DNA from: a virus
DNA length: 38,344 nt
IMG/VR virus record: IMGVR_UViG_3300029922_000165
Span: 1-38,344 of that record
Strand: one strand, 5' to 3'
This document shows, one piece after another, positions 715 through 12,677 of this stretch. Each line of letters opens with the position of its first letter. Within the stretch, counting starts at the first letter, position 1. The notes under the pieces were generated by a model. It was not told the origin of the DNA and did not search any database. It saw only the letters and a program-made list of their open reading frames with translations. The position numbers and the translations under genes were made by a program.

Positions 715-3690
715 ATGCGGGCGGGGAGGGGGGAGATCATCGTTGACTCGTTTGCCGGCGGCGGCGGAGCTTCGCTCGGCATAGAGCGTGCGATCGGGCG
801 TTCGCCCGACATCGCGATCAACCATGACGAGGCGGCGATCGCGATGCACGCCGCCAATCATCCGGCGACGCGGCATCTGCAGCACAATGTCTGGAAGGTC
901 GATCCGTTGGCGGCGACGGGCGGCGCGCCGGTCGGGCTGATGTGGGCGTCGCCCGATTGTTTCCCGGCCGGGTCGCTCGTCCTGACGCCGGCCGGCTACG
1001 CGCCTATCGAGGAAATTGAAGTCGGCGACCTCGTGCTGACGCACAAAGGCCGATGGCGGCTGGTGACGGAGACGAGCAGCGCGCAGCGCCCGTTGGTCAC
1101 GCTACGCGGTCACGGACACCCTGGCTTGACGCTGAGCGTCGAGCATCCCGTTTGGGCGCGCCGTCGGCTGGACGTGTGGTCCAGCACGCCCCCGCGCGGC
1201 TATCGACGCTACCTTGATATGGCGGAATGGACGCCGGCCGCAATGCTCGACAAGGGCTGGTATTGGGCGTCGCCCGTCTCCTTCCCGCAAGCTGAGATCC
1301 CGGAAGTCGGAGGCCGAGGTTTTCCGCTCGACCTTCGCCTGCTGTGGCTCGCAGGTCGCTATCTCGGCGATGGCTGGACGCGTTTGACGGATACGCGGGC
1401 AGAAGTCGTCATCACCTGCGGCAAGCATGAAGTCGAGGGCTTGCGCTCTCGACTGTCCGTCTGGCCACGCGAGGGTGCGCGATCCGGACCGGGCGAGTTG
1501 ACGTGGCATGAGCGCGCGACCGGCACGGCCTACCAGTTCACCGCGAATCATCGCGGTCTCGTCGAGTGGTTGCGCGAGCATTTTGGCCATCGCGCGGAGA
1601 GTAAGCGCATTCCCGGATGGGCGCTTGGCCTGCCTGAACAGCAGAAAGAGGCGCTGGTCGCCGGTTATCTCTCGGCGGACGGCTGGCGAGCCGAGACGTT
1701 TTCGGAATGCCGAACGGTCTCGGCGGCCTTGGCCTTCGGCATGAAGGCGTTGCTCGGCGGCCTCGGCAAAGTCGTAATAGTCCACAAGGGCGCGAACGGC
1801 TCAAAAATCGAGGGGCGAGAAGTCGCCGCGCGGCCGATCTACATGCTGCGCTGGCGGCACGTAGGCGACGCCGCACACGAGCAGGTGTTCCGTGAAGACC
1901 TGCACCATTGGGCGCCGATCCGCGAGCAGATCGACGACGGGCTGTTCGGCCAAGTGTTCAACATCGGTGTGGACGAAGACGAGAGCTACGTCGTCGAGGG
2001 CGTCGTCGTCCACAACTGCAAACATTTCTCGAAGGCTAAGGGCGGCAAGCCGGTCGCGCGCAATATTCGCGATCTCGCCTGGGTGGTGGTGAGCTGGGCC
2101 CGCCAGGTGCGGCCGCGCGTGATCTGCCTCGAGAATGTCGAGGAGTTCCGCACCTGGGGGCCGCTCAACGTCGAAAACCGGCCGGACCCCAAGCGCCGGG
2201 GCGAAACGTTCCGGCGCTGGGTCGGCGAGCTGCACCGGCTCGGCTACCGGGTCGAGCATCGCGAATTGCGAGCCTGCGACTATGGCGCGCCGACGATCCG
2301 CAAACGGCTGTTCCTGATCGCGCGCTGTGACGGCTTGCCGATCGTCTGGCCGAAGCCTTCGCATGGCGATCCCAAGAGCGCGGACGTGAAAGCCGGCAGG
2401 CTGAAGCCGTGGCGAACCGCGGCCGAGATCATCGATTGGTCGCGGCCGTGCCCGTCGATCTTTCTGACGGCGCAAGAGGCGCGCGCGCTTGGCGTCAAGC
2501 GGCCGTTGGCGGAAGCAACCATGGCAAGGATCGCTAAGGGCGTGAAGCGCTATGTGCTCGACGCGGCCGAGCCGTTCGTGGTGACGATCAACCATAGCGG
2601 CGAGGGTTTCCGCGGGCAGGGGCTTGACGAACCGTTCCGCACGGTCGCGGCGGCTCGCGATGCGCATGGCCTTGTCGCGCCGGTGTTCGCCTACGGCCAG
2701 CAGGGCGGCGCGGTGCGCGACGCGCAATCGCCGATGAGCACGGTGACCGCGTCGGCGAAGGATACGAACGTGCTGATTGCGCCGCACCTGATGACGATGC
2801 GCAACGCGCAGAAGCCCTCCCTCGGCGCAAGCGAGCCGACGCATACGATCACCTCTGGCGGCGCGCATCTGAACCTCGTCGCGGCGCATCTGACCAAGTT
2901 CAATACGGGCAGCGTCGGCTCCGGCCTCGACGAGCCCGCGCCCACGGTGACGGCCAATTCGTTTCTGCAGCGGCCGGGCGGGGCGGCTCCGATGGGAATC
3001 GTCTCGGCGCATTGCAGCGCCTATTATGGCGACGGTGACGGGTCGACGGACCGCAGCGCGCCGGCCGACGAACCGCTGCGGACCGTGACGACGGAAAATC
3101 GTCATGCGGTCGTCGCGGCCTTCCTCGCCCAGCACAATAGCGGCGTCGTTGGGCATGAAGCGCGCGACCCGGTGTCGACCGTGACGCAGACAGGTTCGCA
3201 TCAGGCGGTCGTCTCGGCGGGGCTCATGAGCCTCAAAGGTTCGGAACGGCGCGGGGCGTCTATCGAGACGCCGCATGCGACGGTTACGGCGCAAGGCTGT
3301 CACAGCGCGGACGTGCGGGCCTTCCTGGTCAAATATTACGGCGAGGGTGGACAGGATCAGGCCGCGGGCGAGCCGCTGCACACCATTCCGACCCGCGACC
3401 GGTTCGGGCTCGTGACGATCGCCGGCGAGGTCTACGAGATCGCCGACATCGGCATGCGGATGCTGACGCCGCGCGAGCTGTTCCGCGCGCAGGGATTCCC
3501 CGATTCCTACGACATCACGACGGGGCCCGGCGGCCGGCGGCTGACGCAGGCCGAGCAGATCGGCCGTTGCGGCAATTCCGTCTGCCCGGATCTCGCCGAG
3601 GCGATCGTTGCGGCCAATTATCGCGCCGCCGACGCGAGGGATTTTCCGGAACGGGAGTTCGGGCCGCTGTTTGTCGGGGCGGCGGAATGA
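715..3690 (+). CDS. DNA (cytosine-5)-methyltransferase, intein-containing
   Basis: This enzyme transfers a methyl group from S-adenosylmethionine to cytosine C5. The 991-residue precursor has motif I (SFAGGGGAS, 12-20), the ENV motif VI (473-475), motif VIII (GAPTIRKRLFLIA, about 524-536) and the motif X region beginning GNSV (953-956). Motif IV with its catalytic cysteine is split by an intein at residues 82-434. Splicing would join SPD to CKHFSKAKGG and leave a protein of about 638 residues. Between motif VIII and the C-terminal motifs the target-recognition region is greatly enlarged by eight repeats (about 626-904). The start ATG is one base after the stop of the HTH-like gene, and the stop overlaps the DnaA-like gene (ATGA). 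The likely role is modification of phage DNA against host restriction. Target sequence cannot be predicted. Confidence 0.93.
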   Translation: MRAGRGEIIVDSFAGGGGASLGIERAIGRSPDIAINHDEAAIAMHAANHPATRHLQHNVWKVDPLAATGGAPVGLMWASPDCFPAGSLVLTPAGYAPIEEIEVGDLVLTHKGRWRLVTETSSAQRPLVTLRGHGHPGLTLSVEHPVWARRRLDVWSSTPPRGYRRYLDMAEWTPAAMLDKGWYWASPVSFPQAEIPEVGGRGFPLDLRLLWLAGRYLGDGWTRLTDTRAEVVITCGKHEVEGLRSRLSVWPREGARSGPGELTWHERATGTAYQFTANHRGLVEWLREHFGHRAESKRIPGWALGLPEQQKEALVAGYLSADGWRAETFSECRTVSAALAFGMKALLGGLGKVVIVHKGANGSKIEGREVAARPIYMLRWRHVGDAAHEQVFREDLHHWAPIREQIDDGLFGQVFNIGVDEDESYVVEGVVVHNCKHFSKAKGGKPVARNIRDLAWVVVSWARQVRPRVICLENVEEFRTWGPLNVENRPDPKRRGETFRRWVGELHRLGYRVEHRELRACDYGAPTIRKRLFLIARCDGLPIVWPKPSHGDPKSADVKAGRLKPWRTAAEIIDWSRPCPSIFLTAQEARALGVKRPLAEATMARIAKGVKRYVLDAAEPFVVTINHSGEGFRGQGLDEPFRTVAAARDAHGLVAPVFAYGQQGGAVRDAQSPMSTVTASAKDTNVLIAPHLMTMRNAQKPSLGASEPTHTITSGGAHLNLVAAHLTKFNTGSVGSGLDEPAPTVTANSFLQRPGGAAPMGIVSAHCSAYYGDGDGSTDRSAPADEPLRTVTTENRHAVVAAFLAQHNSGVVGHEARDPVSTVTQTGSHQAVVSAGLMSLKGSERRGASIETPHATVTAQGCHSADVRAFLVKYYGEGGQDQAAGEPLHTIPTRDRFGLVTIAGEVYEIADIGMRMLTPRELFRAQGFPDSYDITTGPGGRRLTQAEQIGRCGNSVCPDLAEAIVAANYRAADARDFPEREFGPLFVGAAE
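958..2016 (+). mobile_element. Intein with LAGLIDADG homing endonuclease
   Basis: This in-frame element encodes 353 residues (82-434 of the precursor). It starts with Cys followed by a typical block A (CFPAGSLVLTP, then IEEIEVGDLVLT). A block B-like SVEHPVW has the conserved His at intein position 63, with Ser where Thr is usual. Two endonuclease motifs, LAGRYLGDG (131-139) and LVAGYLSADG (233-242), mark a dodecapeptide homing endonuclease. Block F reads VFNIGVDEDESYVV, and the end is VVVHN followed by Cys+1. All splicing residues (Cys1, block B His, penultimate His, terminal Asn, Cys+1) are present, so it is probably active. Cys+1 (codon 2017-2019) is the methyltransferase's own catalytic cysteine, so the enzyme should be dead until splicing occurs. 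Whether the endonuclease still cuts is unknown. Confidence 0.93.
2590..3426 (+). repeat. Eight degenerate ~35-residue repeats in the methyltransferase
   Basis: The target-recognition region is made of about eight tandem units of 31-41 residues. Each carries an acidic-Pro turn followed by a T(V/I)T-like strand, a polar or His-containing loop and a hydrophobic (V)VxAxL-type strand, for example DEPLRTVTTENRHAVVAAFL and EPLHTIPTRDRFGLVTIAG. The units have diverged strongly, so the DNA is not an obvious tandem repeat. They may form a repeated beta structure that recognises one or several DNA targets; that is inference. Confidence 0.75.
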
Positions 3691-4250
3691 ACGCCCTCGT
3701 CCCGCTCACGCCCGTCGCGGGCCCCAACTACGCCGCGCGGCTGCGCGCGCATTATCGCGAGGTTTCGCGCCGGCTGGCGGAGGGCGGAACGGTCGAGGCC
3801 GCACAGGCCGTGAAGCCCGAGATGAGCCCGGCGCGGCGCGCTTACGCCGATTACGAGGAGATCTGGAGCGAACAGGTCGTGATGTTTGCCGCGCTCGTCT
3901 CGGCGGCCGTGTTGCTCGCCTGGCGCGAGGCCTGGCGCGGGCGCATGCGTCCTGTGCTGGGCGCGTCGACCTGGGTGCAGGTGCGGGTAGCGGCCGATTA
4001 TGGCGTGACGCGCGAGGAGCTGATCGGCCCGCAGCGCAAGCCGCGCTTCGTCGAGCCGCGGCAGGTGGCGATCTGGATCGTGTTTCGCTCGACCCGCGCC
4101 TCGCTGCCGCGCGTCGGCGCGCTGTTTGGCGGGCGCGACCATACGACCGTGCTGCATTCGGTGCGCCGGGTCGAGGCGCGGCGCGTGCGCGACGGCGAGT
4201 TCCGTCGCCGTACCGATCGTCTGATGAGACAGGCGGAGACGCTGACATGA
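3687..4250 (+). CDS. DnaA domain IV-like DNA-binding protein
   Basis: A 187-residue protein whose C-terminal half matches the DNA-binding domain IV of the bacterial replication initiator DnaA. It has VAADYGVTREELIGPQRKPR, then a region around RQVAIWIVFR, and the signature GGRDHTTVLH (148-157), which contacts the DnaA box in DnaA. The AAA+ ATPase domain III is absent; the N-terminal 90 residues are helical and not recognised. It sits directly upstream of the primase and helicase genes, so it probably binds the phage origin or modulates host DnaA. The start ATG overlaps the methyltransferase stop, and its own stop overlaps the next ATG. It may act as a stand-alone origin-binding protein or a competitor of host DnaA; the sequence does not decide. 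Confidence 0.88.
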   Translation: MNALVPLTPVAGPNYAARLRAHYREVSRRLAEGGTVEAAQAVKPEMSPARRAYADYEEIWSEQVVMFAALVSAAVLLAWREAWRGRMRPVLGASTWVQVRVAADYGVTREELIGPQRKPRFVEPRQVAIWIVFRSTRASLPRVGALFGGRDHTTVLHSVRRVEARRVRDGEFRRRTDRLMRQAETLT

Positions 4251-4600
4251 CCGTCTATGTCGACGACGTGCGACATGCTTTCGGCACGATGATCATGTGC
4301 CACCTATGGGCGGACGATCTCGAGGAGCTGCTCGTGATGGCCGACCGGCTCGGGCTGGACCGCCGCTGGCTGCAGGGGCCGCCGAAGGCGTCGTGGCTGC
4401 ATTTCGACGTTTCGTTGCGGAAGAAAGCCATCGCCATCGCGGCCGGGGCGGTGCTGACCGACAAATACGGGCCGCTCGAGCATCTGGCGCGGCTCGATAT
4501 CGCCTCGGGCGATCCGGCGCGGGTCAAGCGCGGCGAGGCGAAGTTGCGAACCCTCGCGGAGGCGCGGGCCGTGCGCGCGACCTCGGGAGCGGAGGCCTGA
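4247..4600 (+). CDS. DUF4031 family protein
   Basis: A 117-residue protein that begins MTVYVDDVRHAFGTMIMCHL and contains LWADDLEELLVMADRLGL and PPKASWLHFDVSLRKKAIAI, the pattern of the DUF4031 family found in many phages and bacteria. The biochemical role of the family is not established. The conserved acidic, His and Trp residues near the N-terminus and the WLHFD segment suggest a binding or catalytic pocket. It is tightly coupled to its neighbours: its ATG overlaps the stop of the DnaA-like gene, and its stop shares a base with the primase start (TGATG). This links it to replication or nucleotide metabolism by context only. Confidence 0.8.
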   Translation: MTVYVDDVRHAFGTMIMCHLWADDLEELLVMADRLGLDRRWLQGPPKASWLHFDVSLRKKAIAIAAGAVLTDKYGPLEHLARLDIASGDPARVKRGEAKLRTLAEARAVRATSGAEA

Positions 4601-5751
4601 TGCTCGCCCGCGCCGAAATCGACGAACTCTGCGCGCGCGTAAATTTGCGCGAGCTGGCGGGGCGCTTGGGGGCGCAGTTCCGAGGCAAGTCGCGGTATGG
4701 CTCGTGCCCGATCTGCGGCGGCGGGAAAAGCGCGGCGCGGTTCGAGATCAAGCGCGAGCCGGCGGGCGAGGCGTGGGTGTGCGCGGTCTGCGCCGACGGC
4801 GGCGATGCGATCAAGCTGGTGATGCGGGTCAAGCATCTCGGCTTTTCGGCCGCGGTCGCCGAGCTCGGCGGTGCCCCCTCCCTCTCGCCCGAGGAGGCGC
4901 GCCGGCTCGAGGACAAGCGCAACGCGGAGCGGGCGCGGCGCGAGGCCGAAGCCGAGCGCTATCGCGAGCGCGCGCGGCGCGAGCTCTATGGGCTGTGGAA
5001 GGCCTCGCCGCCGTTCTCGGGGACGCCGGTCGAGGCCTATTTGCGCGAGCGCGGGCTGACGTGGCGGCTCGGCGACCTGGTGCTGCGCTATGCTGCGGAT
5101 CTGCCCTATCTCCACGGCGAAACGATCGACGAGACGGGCCGCAAGGCGGGGCGCGTGATCCACCGCGGGCCGGCGATGCTGGCGGCGTTCGTCGGCGCGG
5201 ACGGGCGGTTTCTCGGCCTGCATCGCACCTGGATCGATGCGCAGCGGCCGGGCGCGAAGGCTCAGATATTCGACCCCGACAGCGGCGAGGCGCTGCCTTC
5301 GAAGAAAATGCGCGGCTCCAAACAGGGCGGCTTTCTGCGGCTGACGCGCGGCGGCGACCCGGCGCTGATCTATGCCGGCGAGGGCATAGAGACGACGTTG
5401 TCGGCGCGCGAGGCGATGCGCGACGACGCGCTCTATGTCGCCGCCGGCGATCTCGGCAACCTCGCCGGGCCCTCGTTGGAAAGCGTGACGCACCCGAGCC
5501 TGCGGCATGCGAGCGGGCGCGCGATGCGTGTGCCAGGCCCGGAACCTGATTTTTCCGGCGCGGCGATGCCCGTGCCTGAGGCGTGCCGCGAGCTGGTGCT
5601 GCTCAAGGATGGCGACAGCGATCCGTTTGCGACCGACCTCGCGATGACGCGGGCGGTGGCGCGGCATGCGCGGGTGGGGCGGAAGGTGCGCGTCGCCGCG
5701 GCGGCCGCCGGGGCGGATTTCAACGACATGCTGATGCTGACGGGGACGTGA
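4600..5751 (+). CDS. DNA primase, zinc-finger and Toprim domains
   Basis: A 383-residue primase that would make RNA primers for phage DNA replication. The N-terminus has a zinc-binding site with CPIC (36-39) and CAVC (61-64), as in CHC2-type primases. A charged coiled segment follows (about 98-130). The Toprim fold is shown by LIYAGEGIETTLSA (EGIET 261-265) and an acidic DGDSD (337-341) preceded by hydrophobic residues; both are metal-binding elements of this fold. DFND (373-376) lies near the end. No helicase domain is present; that function is supplied by the next gene, whose ATG overlaps this stop. The split primase/helicase pair is common in phages. Confidence 0.88.
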   Translation: MLARAEIDELCARVNLRELAGRLGAQFRGKSRYGSCPICGGGKSAARFEIKREPAGEAWVCAVCADGGDAIKLVMRVKHLGFSAAVAELGGAPSLSPEEARRLEDKRNAERARREAEAERYRERARRELYGLWKASPPFSGTPVEAYLRERGLTWRLGDLVLRYAADLPYLHGETIDETGRKAGRVIHRGPAMLAAFVGADGRFLGLHRTWIDAQRPGAKAQIFDPDSGEALPSKKMRGSKQGGFLRLTRGGDPALIYAGEGIETTLSAREAMRDDALYVAAGDLGNLAGPSLESVTHPSLRHASGRAMRVPGPEPDFSGAAMPVPEACRELVLLKDGDSDPFATDLAMTRAVARHARVGRKVRVAAAAAGADFNDMLMLTGT

Positions 5752-8074: not shown

Positions 8075-8361
8075 GCCGCGTGCGCATCTTCCGCTATTGC
8101 GTCTGGTCGCAGATCCTGCTTGCCGAGCGCGCGGGCTGGAAGGTGGTCGAGGTTGGCCCGAGCCATCACAGCGTTTATTCCGTGCTCGTCGAGTGGCTTT
8201 GCGATTGCGAGCCGGCGTCCTGGTCCGAGATTGAGGCGTCCTCAACGAGCCTGGCGCGCCCGGAACCCATCAAAGAGGCGCTTCGCGAGGCGAAAAACCC
8301 TCGAAAACCGATAGTCGCCGATAGTTTTCAGAGGGTTTTGGTTGATGAGTCTAAGGGGTGA
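8071..8361 (+). CDS. Small unknown protein, last gene of the early operon
   Basis: A 96-residue protein not assigned to a family. Its start overlaps the stop of the methyltransferase (ATGA), which strongly supports it as a real gene. The N-terminal part is rich in Trp, Tyr and Val (YCVWSQILLAERAGWKVVEV) and includes a double Cys (LCDCEP); no membrane segment is evident. The last 25 codons overlap the repeat cluster that starts at 8293, so this part of the gene must satisfy both coding and repeat constraints. Function unknown. Confidence 0.7.
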   Translation: MSRVRIFRYCVWSQILLAERAGWKVVEVGPSHHSVYSVLVEWLCDCEPASWSEIEASSTSLARPEPIKEALREAKNPRKPIVADSFQRVLVDESKG

Positions 8362-8585
8362 AAGGGGAATGCGGACAATGACTTAAGAGCACCAACCGAG
8401 GGTTTCGAGGGTTTTTACGCGCGTATGCATATGCGCGTGAAGGGGAACGGGGAAGAAAAAGCGATTTGCTTTGCCTATAGGGGAAAACTATCGGCAACTC
8501 TCTAAAAATCGTATAAGTATATGAAAATAATAAGAAAAAATGCGTTAGAGTTAGCAAATAAAACCCTCTTTCAACTCTCGGCAAC
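8293..8585. repeat. Repeat cluster in A+T-rich DNA, candidate replication origin
   Basis: The 9-mer GAGGGTTTT occurs inverted at 8294-8302 and 8560-8568 and directly at 8331-8339 and 8407-8415, with a one-base variant at 8398-8406 that abuts the fourth copy. GCCGATAGTTTTC (8317-8329) has a perfect inverted copy at 8483-8495, and CCGATAGT is also repeated at 8308-8315. TCGGCAAC occurs at 8491-8498 and 8578-8585, CAACTCTC at 8495-8502 and 8572-8579. Between them, about 8500-8565 is by far the most A+T-rich DNA of the window. Iteron-like repeats next to an easily melted stretch, just after the DnaA-like, primase and helicase genes, fit a phage origin. The same region may also carry the promoter for the NusG-like gene. 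No canonical DnaA box was found. Confidence 0.55.
8417..8438. promoter_or_regulatory. 22-bp near-perfect palindrome
   Basis: Bases 8417-8438 read almost the same on both strands (outer ACGCGC/GCGCGT, centre TATGCATA), with one mismatched pair per half-site. It starts directly after the tandem GAGGGTTT repeats. Its size and symmetry fit an operator for a dimeric regulator or a structural part of the putative origin. Confidence 0.45.
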
Positions 8586-8601
8586 CCTAACGAGGATTCC
8601 C

Positions 8602-9228
8602 ATGCTGTCCCCGCGAATTGGAATCGCCCTGACGCGCCGAAATGACCTGCAACGGGGCCCGAATGGCGGCACGTTCCGGGCGAGGCGCAAGGCCGAACGA
8701 ATTGACGAGACCGGAGTGCGTTGGTTGGTGGCGCGGGTTATGACCGGGCAGGAATTCGCGATCGCAGACGATCTCGCGGCGGCGGGGTTTCGCGCCTATG
8801 CGCCGCATGGGGTGAGGGTGAACTGGCAGGCGGCTAAGGGCAAGAAATGTCGGCGCGAGCGCGATTATGCGATTTTTGCGGGCTATGTGTTTGTGGGCTG
8901 TCCCGATGGGTTGTTGCTCGGCAAGCTCTCGCATGAGGGGATTATTGAAGTGCTGGGTGAGATTTTGGAGCGCGCGAACGAACCTTCGGTTTTGCGCGCG
9001 CTGAACGATCTGCACTTGTCAGGCATTTGGGACGATCGACAGGCTCCGCCATTAACCGGGCCTGTTCTGAAAACAGGGGACATGGTGCAGGTGATGGAAG
9101 GGCCGTTCGCTTCGTTTCTTGCGATTGTGCGGAAGCTGCCGAGCGCGGTGCGGGCGTCCATCGACGTGAACATTTTCGGCCGTACGACAAAACTCGATAT
9201 CGACACTAGACAGCTGCGGGCGATGTGA
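8602..9228 (+). CDS. NusG/RfaH-like transcription antitermination protein
   Basis: A 208-residue member of the NusG family, which binds RNA polymerase and controls pausing and termination. The NGN domain begins at WLVARVMTGQEFAIADDL (about 41-58) and includes GFRAYAPHG and the strand IFAGYVFVG, a core NusG pattern. The C-terminal part has the KOW-like TGDMVQVMEGPFASFLAIV and ends with a strand around VNIFGRTTKLDI. I chose ATG 8602 because CGAGGA lies just upstream; the longer frame from 8521 runs through A+T-rich, repeat-bearing DNA and lacks such a site. It is a phage paralogue, not the host nusG, which normally neighbours secE and rplK. Lying just before the late region, it is a good candidate for a late-gene antiterminator. 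Confidence 0.85.
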   Translation: MLSPRIGIALTRRNDLQRGPNGGTFRARRKAERIDETGVRWLVARVMTGQEFAIADDLAAAGFRAYAPHGVRVNWQAAKGKKCRRERDYAIFAGYVFVGCPDGLLLGKLSHEGIIEVLGEILERANEPSVLRALNDLHLSGIWDDRQAPPLTGPVLKTGDMVQVMEGPFASFLAIVRKLPSAVRASIDVNIFGRTTKLDIDTRQLRAM

Positions 9229-9247
9229 TAGCGTTCTGTGCGTCAAA

Positions 9248-9286
9248 GCAGAGCGAAAGTGTTGCATATTTGCAACTTCGCTCTGC
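9248..9286 (+). terminator. Long hairpin after the NusG-like gene
   Basis: GCAGAGCGAA (9248-9257) and TTCGCTCTGC (9277-9286) pair perfectly, and the inner AGTGTTGCA/TTGCAACT extends the stem with one bulged base. This makes a stem of about 18 bp with a tiny loop. The following bases are mixed, not a T-run, so it may be a factor-dependent terminator, an RNA element recognised by the antiterminator, or a processing site. Confidence 0.55.
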
Positions 9287-9308
9287 TGCTGCAATGGCAA
9301 AATCCTCG

Positions 9309-9351
9309 AAAAATCAGATTTTTAGTGGGACGCGCGAGCGCGCGTAGCGTG
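9309..9351 (+). promoter_or_regulatory. Late leader: short inverted repeats and an ops-like octamer
   Basis: AAAAATC (9309-9315) and GATTTTT (9317-9323) are inverted copies. ACGCGCG/CGCGCGT form a second pair at 9330-9345. GTAGCGTG at 9344-9351 is identical to eight bases of the E. coli ops element recognised by RfaH; the remaining ops bases match poorly. It lies 10 bases before the first late gene and 115 bases after a NusG/RfaH-like gene. The match may be chance. Confidence 0.3.
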
Positions 9352-9361
9352 GGATCGGCGC

Positions 9362-9907
9362 ATGCGAATCATCACGCGCTTTGAGGGCGACGCGCTTGAT
9401 AAGCTCCGCACTCGCCTGCTGTCGCTTGAGGATCAATCCGCGATGGCGGCGGCTCTCAATGCAGCCGGCTCGGAGATCCGCAAGCAAACGATCGACGCCG
9501 AAACGCGGCAGACCGGGCTGAAACACGACACGATCGAGCGCGCGCAGGTCGCGCAACCAGCGTCAGCTGGCCGTCTCGCCTTCACCATCCGCTCGAAGGG
9601 TGGGAATGTCCGGCTGAAATACTTTGGCGCGCGAGAGACTGGAAGCGGCGTTACAGCCGACCCTTGGGACGCGCCGCACTTCTATCCGCAAGCGTTCATC
9701 AACTCAGGATGGAAGGACCGACGGCCCTCGCCAAAGCTCAACGGTCAGGTCTACAAGCGCGTCGGCCGCAAGAGTATGCCGATCGTGCAAGAGAAGTCTG
9801 GTCTGTTCATTCCAACTGAGATGACCAAAGGCGCGACGGCGCAGGCGTTCGAACAGACCTCGCGCAGGGCGCTGCTTGAGATAATAACCCGGCTTCTGGC
9901 CGTCTGA
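9362..9907 (+). CDS. Prophage minor tail protein Z-like protein
   Basis: A 181-residue protein resembling the phage GpZ minor tail protein family. The pattern is AALNAAGSEIRKQTIDAETRQTGL near residues 31-55 (a helical region with ETRQTGLKHDTI), a GRLAFTIRSKGG strand, LKYFGARETGSGV and a C-terminal LFIPTEMTKG segment. In lambda-like and related phages GpZ is thought to act at the tail end that joins the head. Here it is unusual: it precedes the terminase genes, far from the head-tail connector genes. The ATG at 9362 has no strong ribosome binding site; translation may depend on the leader just upstream. Family call from pattern memory, moderately sure. Confidence 0.7.
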   Translation: MRIITRFEGDALDKLRTRLLSLEDQSAMAAALNAAGSEIRKQTIDAETRQTGLKHDTIERAQVAQPASAGRLAFTIRSKGGNVRLKYFGARETGSGVTADPWDAPHFYPQAFINSGWKDRRPSPKLNGQVYKRVGRKSMPIVQEKSGLFIPTEMTKGATAQAFEQTSRRALLEIITRLLAV

Positions 9908-10090
9908 TCGCGCCGTTTGTCGTTCCAGGACCGGGTCTGTCGTGCCCCGATCGCCCCGCCCCCCCCCATTGGGTCCTTCCTGGCCACCCCCCATGCTCCC
10001 GAGAGGCAGAGGCGCGATGAAAAACTAGTGGGGGTCTGAAAAATTAGGGTTCGGCGGGTTCGCTAAGTTCGGGGTTTGGTTCGCACAACC
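9908..10090. other. Pre-terminase gap, candidate cos region
   Basis: No gene is seen. The region has a run of nine C (9959-9967), a GGGTCCTTCCTGGCC block (9971-9985), a second C-run (9987-9992) and G-rich DNA around 10029-10035. Direct near-repeats TGAAAAACTA and TGAAAAATTA and several GGTTCG-like words lie at 10018-10083. Phages with Nu1/gpA-type terminases usually have the cos site just upstream of the small subunit gene, so this gap is the best candidate. The actual nick positions cannot be read. Confidence 0.4.
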
Positions 10091-10705
10091 ATGTTGATCA
10101 CGACGACCGAGTTCGCCAAACAGGTTGGGGTCTCGCAGCGAGCTGTGGCGAAGGCCATCAAAGTCGGCCGCGTCCCCTGCTATGACGAGACCGGCGCGCA
10201 AGCTGTGCCTGGCGTCGCTGGCCGTGTTTTCGTCAAGGCCGACGAGGCGGCCTCGGCCTTTCGGCTATCGCGGGCACGTGTCGACGACGCGGTTCTGGCC
10301 AAGATGGCCGAGGAACTCGACGACGAACTGTCAATCGAGCCCGAAGCCGCCGCGCCGTCCATTGAGGACTCCGGCAAGGCTCAGACGCTCGTCGGCGCCA
10401 AGACGACCAAGGAAGAGCTCCAGAGCGAGCTGCTGCGTCTGCGCCTGGCGCGCGAGCGTGGCGAACTGGTCTCACGGCAGGCGCAGCTCGACGCGTTCGA
10501 GAGCGCCGGCCGCGCGGTCGGGCGGCAGTTCCAGAGCCTGACGACCTGGGCGGAGGAGATCAACGGCGTCGCCCGCGTGGGCGGCGTTCCCGCGCTCACC
10601 GCCTGGCTGCGCGGCAAGGCGAATGATCTTTGCGCCCAACTCGCCGACACGCTGACGGCGACCGCCGCGACCGAGGCCAATGACACCGACGACGGCGACG
10701 ACTGA
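10091..10705 (+). CDS. Terminase small subunit, Nu1-like
   Basis: A 204-residue protein with an N-terminal winged-helix/MerR-like DNA-binding segment (TTTEFAKQVGVSQRAVAKAI, about 4-23), as in lambda Nu1, which recognises the packaging site. A helical acidic middle part follows, then a conserved-looking QSELLRLRLARERGELVSRQ (about 117-136) typical of Nu1-type small subunits. The tail is acidic (ends DDGDD) and probably contacts the large subunit. ATG 10091 was chosen; a TTG at 10076 would add five residues. The gene overlaps the large subunit by 26 bases. It presumably binds the cos region immediately upstream. Confidence 0.82.
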   Translation: MLITTTEFAKQVGVSQRAVAKAIKVGRVPCYDETGAQAVPGVAGRVFVKADEAASAFRLSRARVDDAVLAKMAEELDDELSIEPEAAAPSIEDSGKAQTLVGAKTTKEELQSELLRLRLARERGELVSRQAQLDAFESAGRAVGRQFQSLTTWAEEINGVARVGGVPALTAWLRGKANDLCAQLADTLTATAATEANDTDDGDD

Positions 10706-12677
10706 CGAGCGCGCGCTATTGCTGGGGGCGTTTGCGAAGGGCATACGCCCCGCGCCGATCGTCTCTCCGGCAGAATGGGGCCGCAACCATTTTATCGTGC
10801 CTGTGGGGCCGCAAAAGGGCCAGAAGCTCGATCTGACGCTGACGCCGCACCTCGTCGAGCCGCTCAACATGCTCAGGGTCGATTCGCCCTGGACGGTGAT
10901 TGCGGCGAAGAAATCGGGCCAGTCGGCGTTTTCGACGCTGGGGCTCATCTGGCTGATGTGCCTGATCGACACGTCGCCCGACGATATGATGATCGTGCAG
11001 CCGTCGCTGACAGCGGCCAAGGACTTCAACTCCGAGCGTCTCGACCCGCTCATCAAGTCGACTACGGTGATCGCCAACAAGGTGCGCGCGCAGAAATCGC
11101 GCGACGCCGACGGATCGAAAACGCTCGAGAAGAAATTTCCCGGCGGCCGCCTGGTGCTCACCGGCGCGAATTCGTCGACCGACCTCAGCGCCAAGACCAT
11201 CCGGTTCATGCTGCGCGACGAAGTGGATCGCTGGCCCGCCGATCTCGACGGACAGGGCGACCCGATGGAAATGTGCGATGCGCGCCAGCTCGCGTTCACG
11301 CGCTCCGGCACGCATAAAAGCCTGATCATCTCGACCCCGACCAACAAGGGGGCGAGCCGCATCGATACGGCCTATGCGGCCGGCGACCAGCGCAAGTGGT
11401 TTGTGCCTTGTCCGCATTGCGAGGCCGAGATCACCTTCGACTTCTCGCAGCTGCGTGGCGAGCTGACGCGGCCTTATAACGCGCGCTACATGGCGCAATG
11501 CTGCGGCGCCCGGATCGAGAGCTGGCAGCAGCGCGAGATGGTGCTCGCGGGAAAATGGAAGCCGACCCATACGGGTCCCGGTCGCCAGCCCAGCTACTTT
11601 TTCAATTCGCTTTCGTCGCTGCTCACGAGTTGGGACGAGATCTGGGGCAAATACCTCGACAGCCGCGACGACCCGCTCAAGGAAAAGGGCTTCGCCAATC
11701 TCTGGCTCGGCGAATCCTATGAGGACGTCGGCTCGGATATCGATCCGGCCCGAATCGCCATTCGCATCGAGGATTACGCCCGCAATGTCGTGCCGCCTTG
11801 GGTCGGCCGCCTGGTGCTCGCGGTCGATACTCAGGATGACCGCTTCGAGTGGGCTTTGTGGGGCTTCGGGCCCGCGTCGGGCGGCGCGGCGGTCGAGCAG
11901 ACCTTGATCGCGGCCGGCGAAATCGCCGGAGATCTACACGAGGACGGCCCCTGGGACGAACTCGACGCTCTGGCGAAACGGCTCTGGCCGCATGCCGGAG
12001 GAAAGGGTTTCGCCGCCGACGTGGCGCTGATCGACACCGGCGGCCATTTTACGCAGCGCGCCTATGCGTTCGTGCACAAAAAGGCCCGCTGGCGCGGCAT
12101 CAAAGGCTCCTCCGACCGTTCGGCGATGCCTCTTTCGACGCCGCGACGGTTCGAGGTCAAGAATCGCTTCAATCGGCTGCTGTTCCGCGTGCCGATCTAT
12201 TTCGTCGGCACGTTCGATCTGAAAATCTGGCTCAGCCACGCGCTGAAATGCATCGAAACCGACAAGCCGTTGATCGGCGGCCTGAGGCTAACGAAAGACA
12301 TCGCGGACGAAGTCTATCTCGAACAAATGACCGCCGAGGTGCTCGTGCCGCGCGAAAAGCGCGACGGCATGGTGGTCAAAGAGTGGAAGAAAATCCGGCC
12401 GCGCAACGAGGCGCTCGATCTCGCCGTCTACGCCCGCGCCGGCGCGTTCGGCGCGCATCCCAACGGGCTCGGGGTCGACAGGTTCCCGCCGTCGCGCTGG
12501 GCCGAGATCCTCGCCGAGCGTCACGAAATCATCGACGGAGCGCGCGACCTGTTCGCGCCGGAGGCGGCCGCGCCTCAGGCCCCGGCGCCGCCGGTCGAAG
12601 CCCCGACGCCCGCGCCGGCGCGCGCCCCGCCGGCCCCCGCCGGCTATCTCGGCGGCAGACGCAAAGGTTGGTTATGA
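10680..12677 (+). CDS. Terminase large subunit, GpA family
   Basis: A 665-residue packaging motor and cos-cutting enzyme of the lambda GpA family. The ATPase domain has a deviant Walker A (AAKKSGQS, 75-82) without the classical GK(S/T), as is known for lambda gpA, and a Walker B-like IRFMLRDEVDRW (174-185). A zinc-finger-like cluster follows, with CPHC (244-247) and CC (274-275). The nuclease part begins near LVLAVDTQDD with a probable metal-binding Asp at 383. The C-terminal 40 residues are rich in Pro and Ala, a likely flexible tail to the portal. The start overlaps the small subunit; the stop overlaps the gpW-like gene. It cuts concatemers and pumps DNA into the prohead. Confidence 0.93.
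   Translation: MTPTTATTDERALLLGAFAKGIRPAPIVSPAEWGRNHFIVPVGPQKGQKLDLTLTPHLVEPLNMLRVDSPWTVIAAKKSGQSAFSTLGLIWLMCLIDTSPDDMMIVQPSLTAAKDFNSERLDPLIKSTTVIANKVRAQKSRDADGSKTLEKKFPGGRLVLTGANSSTDLSAKTIRFMLRDEVDRWPADLDGQGDPMEMCDARQLAFTRSGTHKSLIISTPTNKGASRIDTAYAAGDQRKWFVPCPHCEAEITFDFSQLRGELTRPYNARYMAQCCGARIESWQQREMVLAGKWKPTHTGPGRQPSYFFNSLSSLLTSWDEIWGKYLDSRDDPLKEKGFANLWLGESYEDVGSDIDPARIAIRIEDYARNVVPPWVGRLVLAVDTQDDRFEWALWGFGPASGGAAVEQTLIAAGEIAGDLHEDGPWDELDALAKRLWPHAGGKGFAADVALIDTGGHFTQRAYAFVHKKARWRGIKGSSDRSAMPLSTPRRFEVKNRFNRLLFRVPIYFVGTFDLKIWLSHALKCIETDKPLIGGLRLTKDIADEVYLEQMTAEVLVPREKRDGMVVKEWKKIRPRNEALDLAVYARAGAFGAHPNGLGVDRFPPSRWAEILAERHEIIDGARDLFAPEAAAPQAPAPPVEAPTPAPARAPPAPAGYLGGRRKGWL

Follow-up and report, generated by a model that had tools for sequence, protein, structure and literature searches.

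In cells, specialised NusG paralogues serve operons for lipopolysaccharide, capsules and antibiotics. What might such a protein do immediately ahead of the virion genes of a phage? The question is raised by a virus record 38,344 bases long, analysed over its whole length and referred to here as the window, in which the initial annotation had read a NusG-family gene, a hairpin and an octamer resembling the RfaH ops element as a unit for antitermination at the late-gene border. We think it moderately probable that the paralogue and its leader form a late-gene switch working in an RfaH- or LoaP-like mode. The gene itself is preceded by primase and methyltransferase genes and by a non-coding stretch.

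8362..8601, no strand assigned: intergenic region upstream of nusG that contains repeats AAAACCCTC/GAGGGTTTT and AACTATCGGCAAC, a possible nusG regulatory region
8602..9228, + strand: phage NusG paralogue of 208 aa (profile, model and Foldseek evidence)

The reading frame has a second in-frame ATG upstream, at 8521 (ORF 8521/8602-9228), but ATG 8602, with GAGGA ahead of it, is the likelier start. Within 8250-8640 the repeats lie in or before an AT-rich stretch 5′ of nusG, and a terminator-like hairpin occupies 8294-8339. Further upstream, the DNA cytosine methylase ORF at 715-3690 also matches a Hint domain, and its residues 82-440 match a ribonucleotide reductase family, far from methylase function; this ORF probably contains an intein, judging by these matches.

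The NusG-family assignment made initially is borne out. The protein matches PHROG 6386, "transcription antiterminator" (E 8.7e-23), and the Pfam NusG family at 23.3 bits, just over the cut-off of 22.2, with no Pfam KOW match for the window protein itself. A profile built from eight phage proteins, that of the window included, found E. coli NusG (2.7e-21) and RfaH (4.6e-17) among solved structures. In an AlphaFold2 model (mean pLDDT 77.7, pTM 0.56), an NGN domain spans approximately residues 39-120 and a KOW β-barrel approximately residues 161-207. Foldseek searches with this model returned NusG at the top and RfaH-ops complexes close behind, the KOW region matching the NusG C-terminal domain (2jvv). 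With an NGN domain (Pfam match and model) and a C-terminal KOW domain (model and Foldseek match), the protein is a member of the NusG/Spt5 superfamily. Its scores against the NCBIfam models for NusG, UpxY, RfaH and LoaP are weak and all far under the cut-offs: 25.1 bits against 144.5 for the RfaH equivalog TIGR01955, 22.4 bits against 125 for the LoaP family NF033641, and 27 against 100 for UpxY. It may work like RfaH or LoaP, yet these tests place it in neither family.

The comparison with these systems is instructive on both sides. Like RfaH of E. coli, the window protein combines NGN and KOW domains, and it would likewise serve few long operons and be recruited at a leader element. The two differ in that the C-terminal domain of idle RfaH is α-helical, whereas that of the window model is β only, a prediction that leaves fold switching possible, and in that the window gene adjoins its presumed target. 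LoaP of the Bacillus dfn and mln operons is also a specialised NusG paralogue with a leader hairpin, one that is bound as RNA and has a pause and a terminator behind it (according to passages of PMC12691694); however, that hairpin is of the UNCG type, the hosts are Gram-positive, the operons make antibiotics, and the window hairpin is unrelated to it in sequence. UpxY of Bacteroides is broadly the same kind of protein, a specialised NusG paralogue, and parts of PMC7819879 describe upxY as adjoining its target operon, but UpxY serves cellular operons.

The gene stands at a position that recurs in other phages. Behind its leader, as initially proposed, the late genes begin, with a neck gene followed by those for the two terminase subunits, portal and capsid.

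9362..9907, + strand: first late gene, neck/tail-completion protein (phrog_27, E 2e-13)
10076..10705, + strand: terminase small subunit (phrog_57)
10680..12677, + strand: terminase large subunit, GpA type (profile matches)

A sigma-70 consensus scan found no strong promoter 3′ of the window hairpin, which is weak evidence. NusG paralogues recur ahead of terminase or neck genes in distantly related phages, among them phages of Alphaproteobacteria and phages recorded from cyanobacteria. The slot is so occupied in Sinorhizobium phage phi3LM21, Nostoc phage Nsp-JY10 and Mesorhizobium phage vB_MseS-P1, as well as in the loci L001, L005, L008, L011, L012, L370 and L371; in Microcystis phage yong2 the arrangement spans the ends of the record. 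A scan with the terminase gave five relatives with upstream sequence (L007, L008, L011, L012 and L014), to which a wider scan added L015. Three of these (L008, L011 and L012) have a NusG paralogue in the slot, and in L007, L014 and L015 it is replaced by phrog_9306, a family whose function is not known (frames 3670-4542, 4197-5111 and 3670-4410, respectively), a point against our reading. Among the 27 loci from a scan with the neck gene, several of which begin too near the gene to tell, NusG was found in four (two being the L008 and L011 contigs and the other two the additions L370 and L371) and phrog_9306 in six, adding L355, L361, L366, L367 and L375. Since either NusG or phrog_9306 is found there, the slot looks like a place for an exchangeable late regulator, and phrog_9306 would be a candidate Q-like one. 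In three loci (L007/L364, L355 and L361), inspection by eye revealed, behind phrog_9306, a TTGAC-type promoter-like sequence followed by a terminator-like hairpin, a pair that resembles lambda pR′-tR′.

Two further observations concern the same region. In L353, L354, L357 and L358 a third family (RGRKRKPG... KLKREETEREAM) occupies the slot before the neck gene. The motif GGGTCCTT(T/C)C lies just 5′ of the terminase small subunit genes of several phages (window 9971-9980, where it occurs with a C-rich stretch; L011 5255, L012 5271, L014 5279, L015 5254 and L002 6735), and is possibly the cos site.

Four features were mapped in the leader between nusG and the neck gene.

9247..9287, + strand: leader hairpin of 11 + 6 pairs, having a bulge of 3 nt, a loop of 4 nt and no T-run downstream (folding; same architecture in L008)
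9261..9276, + strand: hairpin apex GTTGCATATTTGCAAC, common to L008 (sequence comparison)
9294..9347, + strand: 17-codon frame MAKSSKNQIFSGTRERA, its first codons matching the start of the L008 neck protein
9344..9351, + strand: ops-like octamer GTAGCGTG, unsupported as a functional site (sequence comparison, shuffles)

The hairpin is real in the sense that its stability is far beyond chance (ΔG -26.5, z -5.70; none of 200 shuffles is as stable), even though it has 17 pairs rather than the 18 first counted; the leader as a whole folds with z -3.84. The apex, GTTGCA-N4-TGCAAC, is common only to the window and its nearest relative, L008, and is the single such site in the window even when two mismatches are allowed. 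The L008 hairpin (z -4.23) has the same architecture, with an identical apical stem and a different outer stem. When the apex was held fixed and the flanks were shuffled, the window energy was reached in none of 1000 trials and that of L008 in 46 of 1000. A search for further copies of the shared leader found only L008's own contig, so that conservation in this lineage is a matter of two sequences, and we take it as modest support for a conserved structured leader.

What the hairpin does is less easily read from its structure. It was considered as an intrinsic terminator and rejected: it has no T-run and is therefore none, and neither of two scans called a terminator there. The role of barrier that had been assigned to it is not supported either, as the equivalent L008 hairpin abuts the start codon of the neck gene. 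That position invites another explanation, in which the hairpin influences translation or the stability of the mRNA, either by masking or taking the place of a ribosome-binding site for the first late gene or by protecting the end of the nusG message. The window hairpin lies 6 nt ahead of ATG 9294, which is homologous to the L008 neck start, and inspection by eye showed no clear Shine-Dalgarno sequence. The window neck frame, however, begins only at 9362, behind the 17-codon frame, and we consider an effect of this kind improbable, although not exclusive of the switch, being compatible with NusG-assisted coupling.

The octamer is where it had been reported, ten bases ahead of ATG 9362, but its proposed function as a loading site finds no support. 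Two copies are present in the window where 0.57 would be expected, and 8 of 100 shuffles do as well. The accompanying caution that the match might be due to chance was right; gene and hairpin exceed chance, and the same is not established for the octamer. Among 43 related leaders it is present in that of the window only. By eye, it lies in an insertion that has no counterpart in L008, and the stop codon TAG of the 17-codon frame, whose first codons match the L008 neck protein start with synonymous changes, falls inside it. The ops element comprises 12 nt of DNA and has a C3:G8 pair; the octamer has C at ops position 2 and G at position 3 and is missing C3; changing C3 lowers RfaH recruitment, according to a portion of PMC5995543. 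An ops element with this pair and a consensus pause was sought in the window leader and not found, positions 2 and 3 being different and GN6TGYG absent. We have rejected the octamer as an ops site for want of support, and that it should be the recruitment signal is hardly credible. Hairpin rather than octamer is the more likely loading signal, and it is the best candidate for the window's own recruitment signal; our prediction that it serves the paralogue in this way is tentative, its chances falling a little short of even.

Conserved leader elements occur in two groups of NusG phages. Element A began as a stretch common to the leaders of three NusG phages, spotted by eye, and was then sought in DNA alone by an exact pattern, which returned at least 120 stretches. 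Among the matches listed, 18 contain the full core, TTCACCCGC.GGG.GGCTTGTG, and 14 of these 18 have a NusG gene no more than 600 nt upstream on the same strand, compared with 0 of the 103 loose-only matches listed. The remaining four strict matches are L313, with NusG at 656 nt, L213 and L223, with no room upstream, and L226, with none. In 397 Hyphomicrobiales genomes the core occurred once, behind the prophage NusG gene of L165. Within this group the NusG proteins share 41-97% identity (median 51), and the core holds the consensus pause GG-N6/7-TGYG in 14 of 14 cases. The alignment comprised 17 of 19 stretches (L213 and L313 left out, L223 without flank) and a second one 16, with L226 also left out; the element A profile has no match in the window. 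An element-A-like stretch noticed by eye in L005 is not counted, as the profile fails to recover it.

Element B is shared by the leaders of phi3LM21, Nsp-JY10 and vB_MseS-P1, phages picked by protein similarity, and an exact-pattern search in DNA alone found it in 18 loci. NusG lies 90-149 nt upstream in 17 of the 18, the other being cut by the locus end, and the three named phages add to these. The proteins concerned are 19-89% identical (median 30). The fold of the element has 12 pairs, five with two-sided changes; 96.4% of its cells are paired compared with 88.1% after shuffling and at most 47% in slid versions, and its covariation of 0.306, against 0.139 shuffled, was reached in none of 500 shuffles. 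Both elements having been searched for as exact patterns, constancy within a pattern follows from the method; for element B, the pattern does not cover the 5′ strand of helix 1 or any of helix 2. The looser pause GN6TGYG is present in 11 of 18 element B cores, and the covariance model has no match in the window. Neither element matches an Rfam family at the gathering threshold, and Rfam found nothing at this threshold in 12 loci and nothing sensible in the window leader; A and B appear to be new conserved leader elements. Separately, the suhB/mmgR RNA family (RF00519) scores above threshold between nusG and the late genes in two leaders, L370 (3171-3241, 58.4 bits) and L258 (8131-8215, 43.2 bits), with a weak match below threshold in L276 (984-1052, 35.5 bits).

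Terminator-like sites are also frequent behind these genes, occurring within 600 nt of nusG in 27 of 43 phage loci compared with 146 of 735 random stretches. By group they number 7 of 14 for A, where some calls are weak and loops over the length limit were missed, 14 of 18 for B, mostly approximately 60 nt beyond the element, 2 of 7 for C and 4 of 4 for D. This bears on the suggestion that the protein is a silencer or competitor, which replaces host NusG, promotes or blocks Rho termination and shuts off early or host genes. NusG-family proteins can act both ways (as stated in part of PMC7593976), but the constant place before late genes, the conserved leaders and the terminators all indicate a target in cis, and we regard such a role as very improbable.

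The consensus pause is GN6TGYG, and the window leader has none; nor does the window contain element A or B or a canonical terminator after nusG. These points count against the switch and favour an alternative in which the paralogue serves the late region as a general factor for elongation or translation coupling and needs no specific leader signal, hairpin and octamer being incidental; the plain NusG-like β KOW domain of the model agrees with it. Set against it are elements A and B behind the NusG genes of other lineages, and the apex that window and L008 have in common in spite of an exchanged outer stem. We judge a general factor unlikely, although better placed than a translational hairpin. 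With elements, terminator and pause all missing from the window, the argument from the class supports the role of the protein and not the window's own signal.

In a protein tree of the "quick" kind, where L011, L012, L199, L370 and others have long branches, the carriers of element A make up a single clade (SH-aLRT 99) and those of element B need two changes; the window protein pairs with that of L008 (94), and the housekeeping NusG proteins form one clade (100). Group A was represented by 14 rows (L213, L313, L223, L226 and the incomplete L222 and L266 left out) and group B by 18 of 20 rows with NusG (L330 and L337 left out). The L191 protein groups with a Labrenzia phage protein. Leader type follows protein type, as it would if the two had evolved jointly. 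Close kinship of the phages would also yield part of this match; the element B proteins, however, are far apart.

The late-gene switch that we favour has its observed basis in the gene, the hairpin, the slot, the elements beside the NusG genes of other phages and the terminators in many of them, and we infer recruitment, antitermination and a role for the window's own hairpin. The paralogue would be made as the last product ahead of the virion genes. RNA polymerase, having transcribed nusG, would enter the leader, where the paralogue would be recruited to the elongation complex via its NGN domain; in the window lineage the leader hairpin would most likely be what recruits it, either as RNA in the manner of LoaP or as displaced DNA. 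The modified polymerase would then be processive through the long late region, resisting pauses and Rho, and in relatives would also pass the terminators behind the leader. The KOW domain may bring a ribosome to the first late gene, which begins close behind the hairpin. At the level of the class, the antitermination unit initially proposed gains support from slot, elements and terminators; its barrier and octamer loading site are not supported.

Lambda Q (pR′, tR′), GafZ of the Caulobacter GTA and P7 of Xp10 are comparable as phage or phage-like late antiterminators; neither Q nor P7 is known as a NusG-family protein. GafZ is not one either and works together with host NusG (PMC11150451). Chances seem to us evenly balanced that phages repeatedly took NusG paralogues as late antiterminators, in the place of lambda Q, each lineage with its own leader element (A, B and the window's hairpin), giving matched protein-leader pairs of independent specificity and a class so far undescribed. 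A search of the openly licensed PMC literature brought up no paper that describes phage NusG paralogues acting as late regulators together with leader elements; rfaH-like genes on prophages are mentioned in part of PMC7593976, and no account of what they do was found. If true, this would be a further type of late-antitermination protein beside Q-like proteins and GafZ, with dozens of protein/leader pairs whose recruitment specificity could be worked out from sequence and put to the test. A direct test set would be provided by elements A and B, which could also become tools for controlled read-through in Alphaproteobacteria.

Beyond phage records, 40 Hyphomicrobiales loci with NusG paralogues were searched with six terminase seeds, and a large subunit was found only in L165 and L199; three of the seeds (from L001, L005 and L012, the longest downstream frame in each) are putative terminases, so prophages may be missed among these loci. 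A scan of genome contigs gave 80 loci, most judged from titles and similar scores to be housekeeping NusG. One locus recorded as a phage, L329 (MW495066, Microcystis phage MaAM05), carries a secE-nusG-rplK-rplA cluster together with metabolic genes and looks like bacterial sequence.
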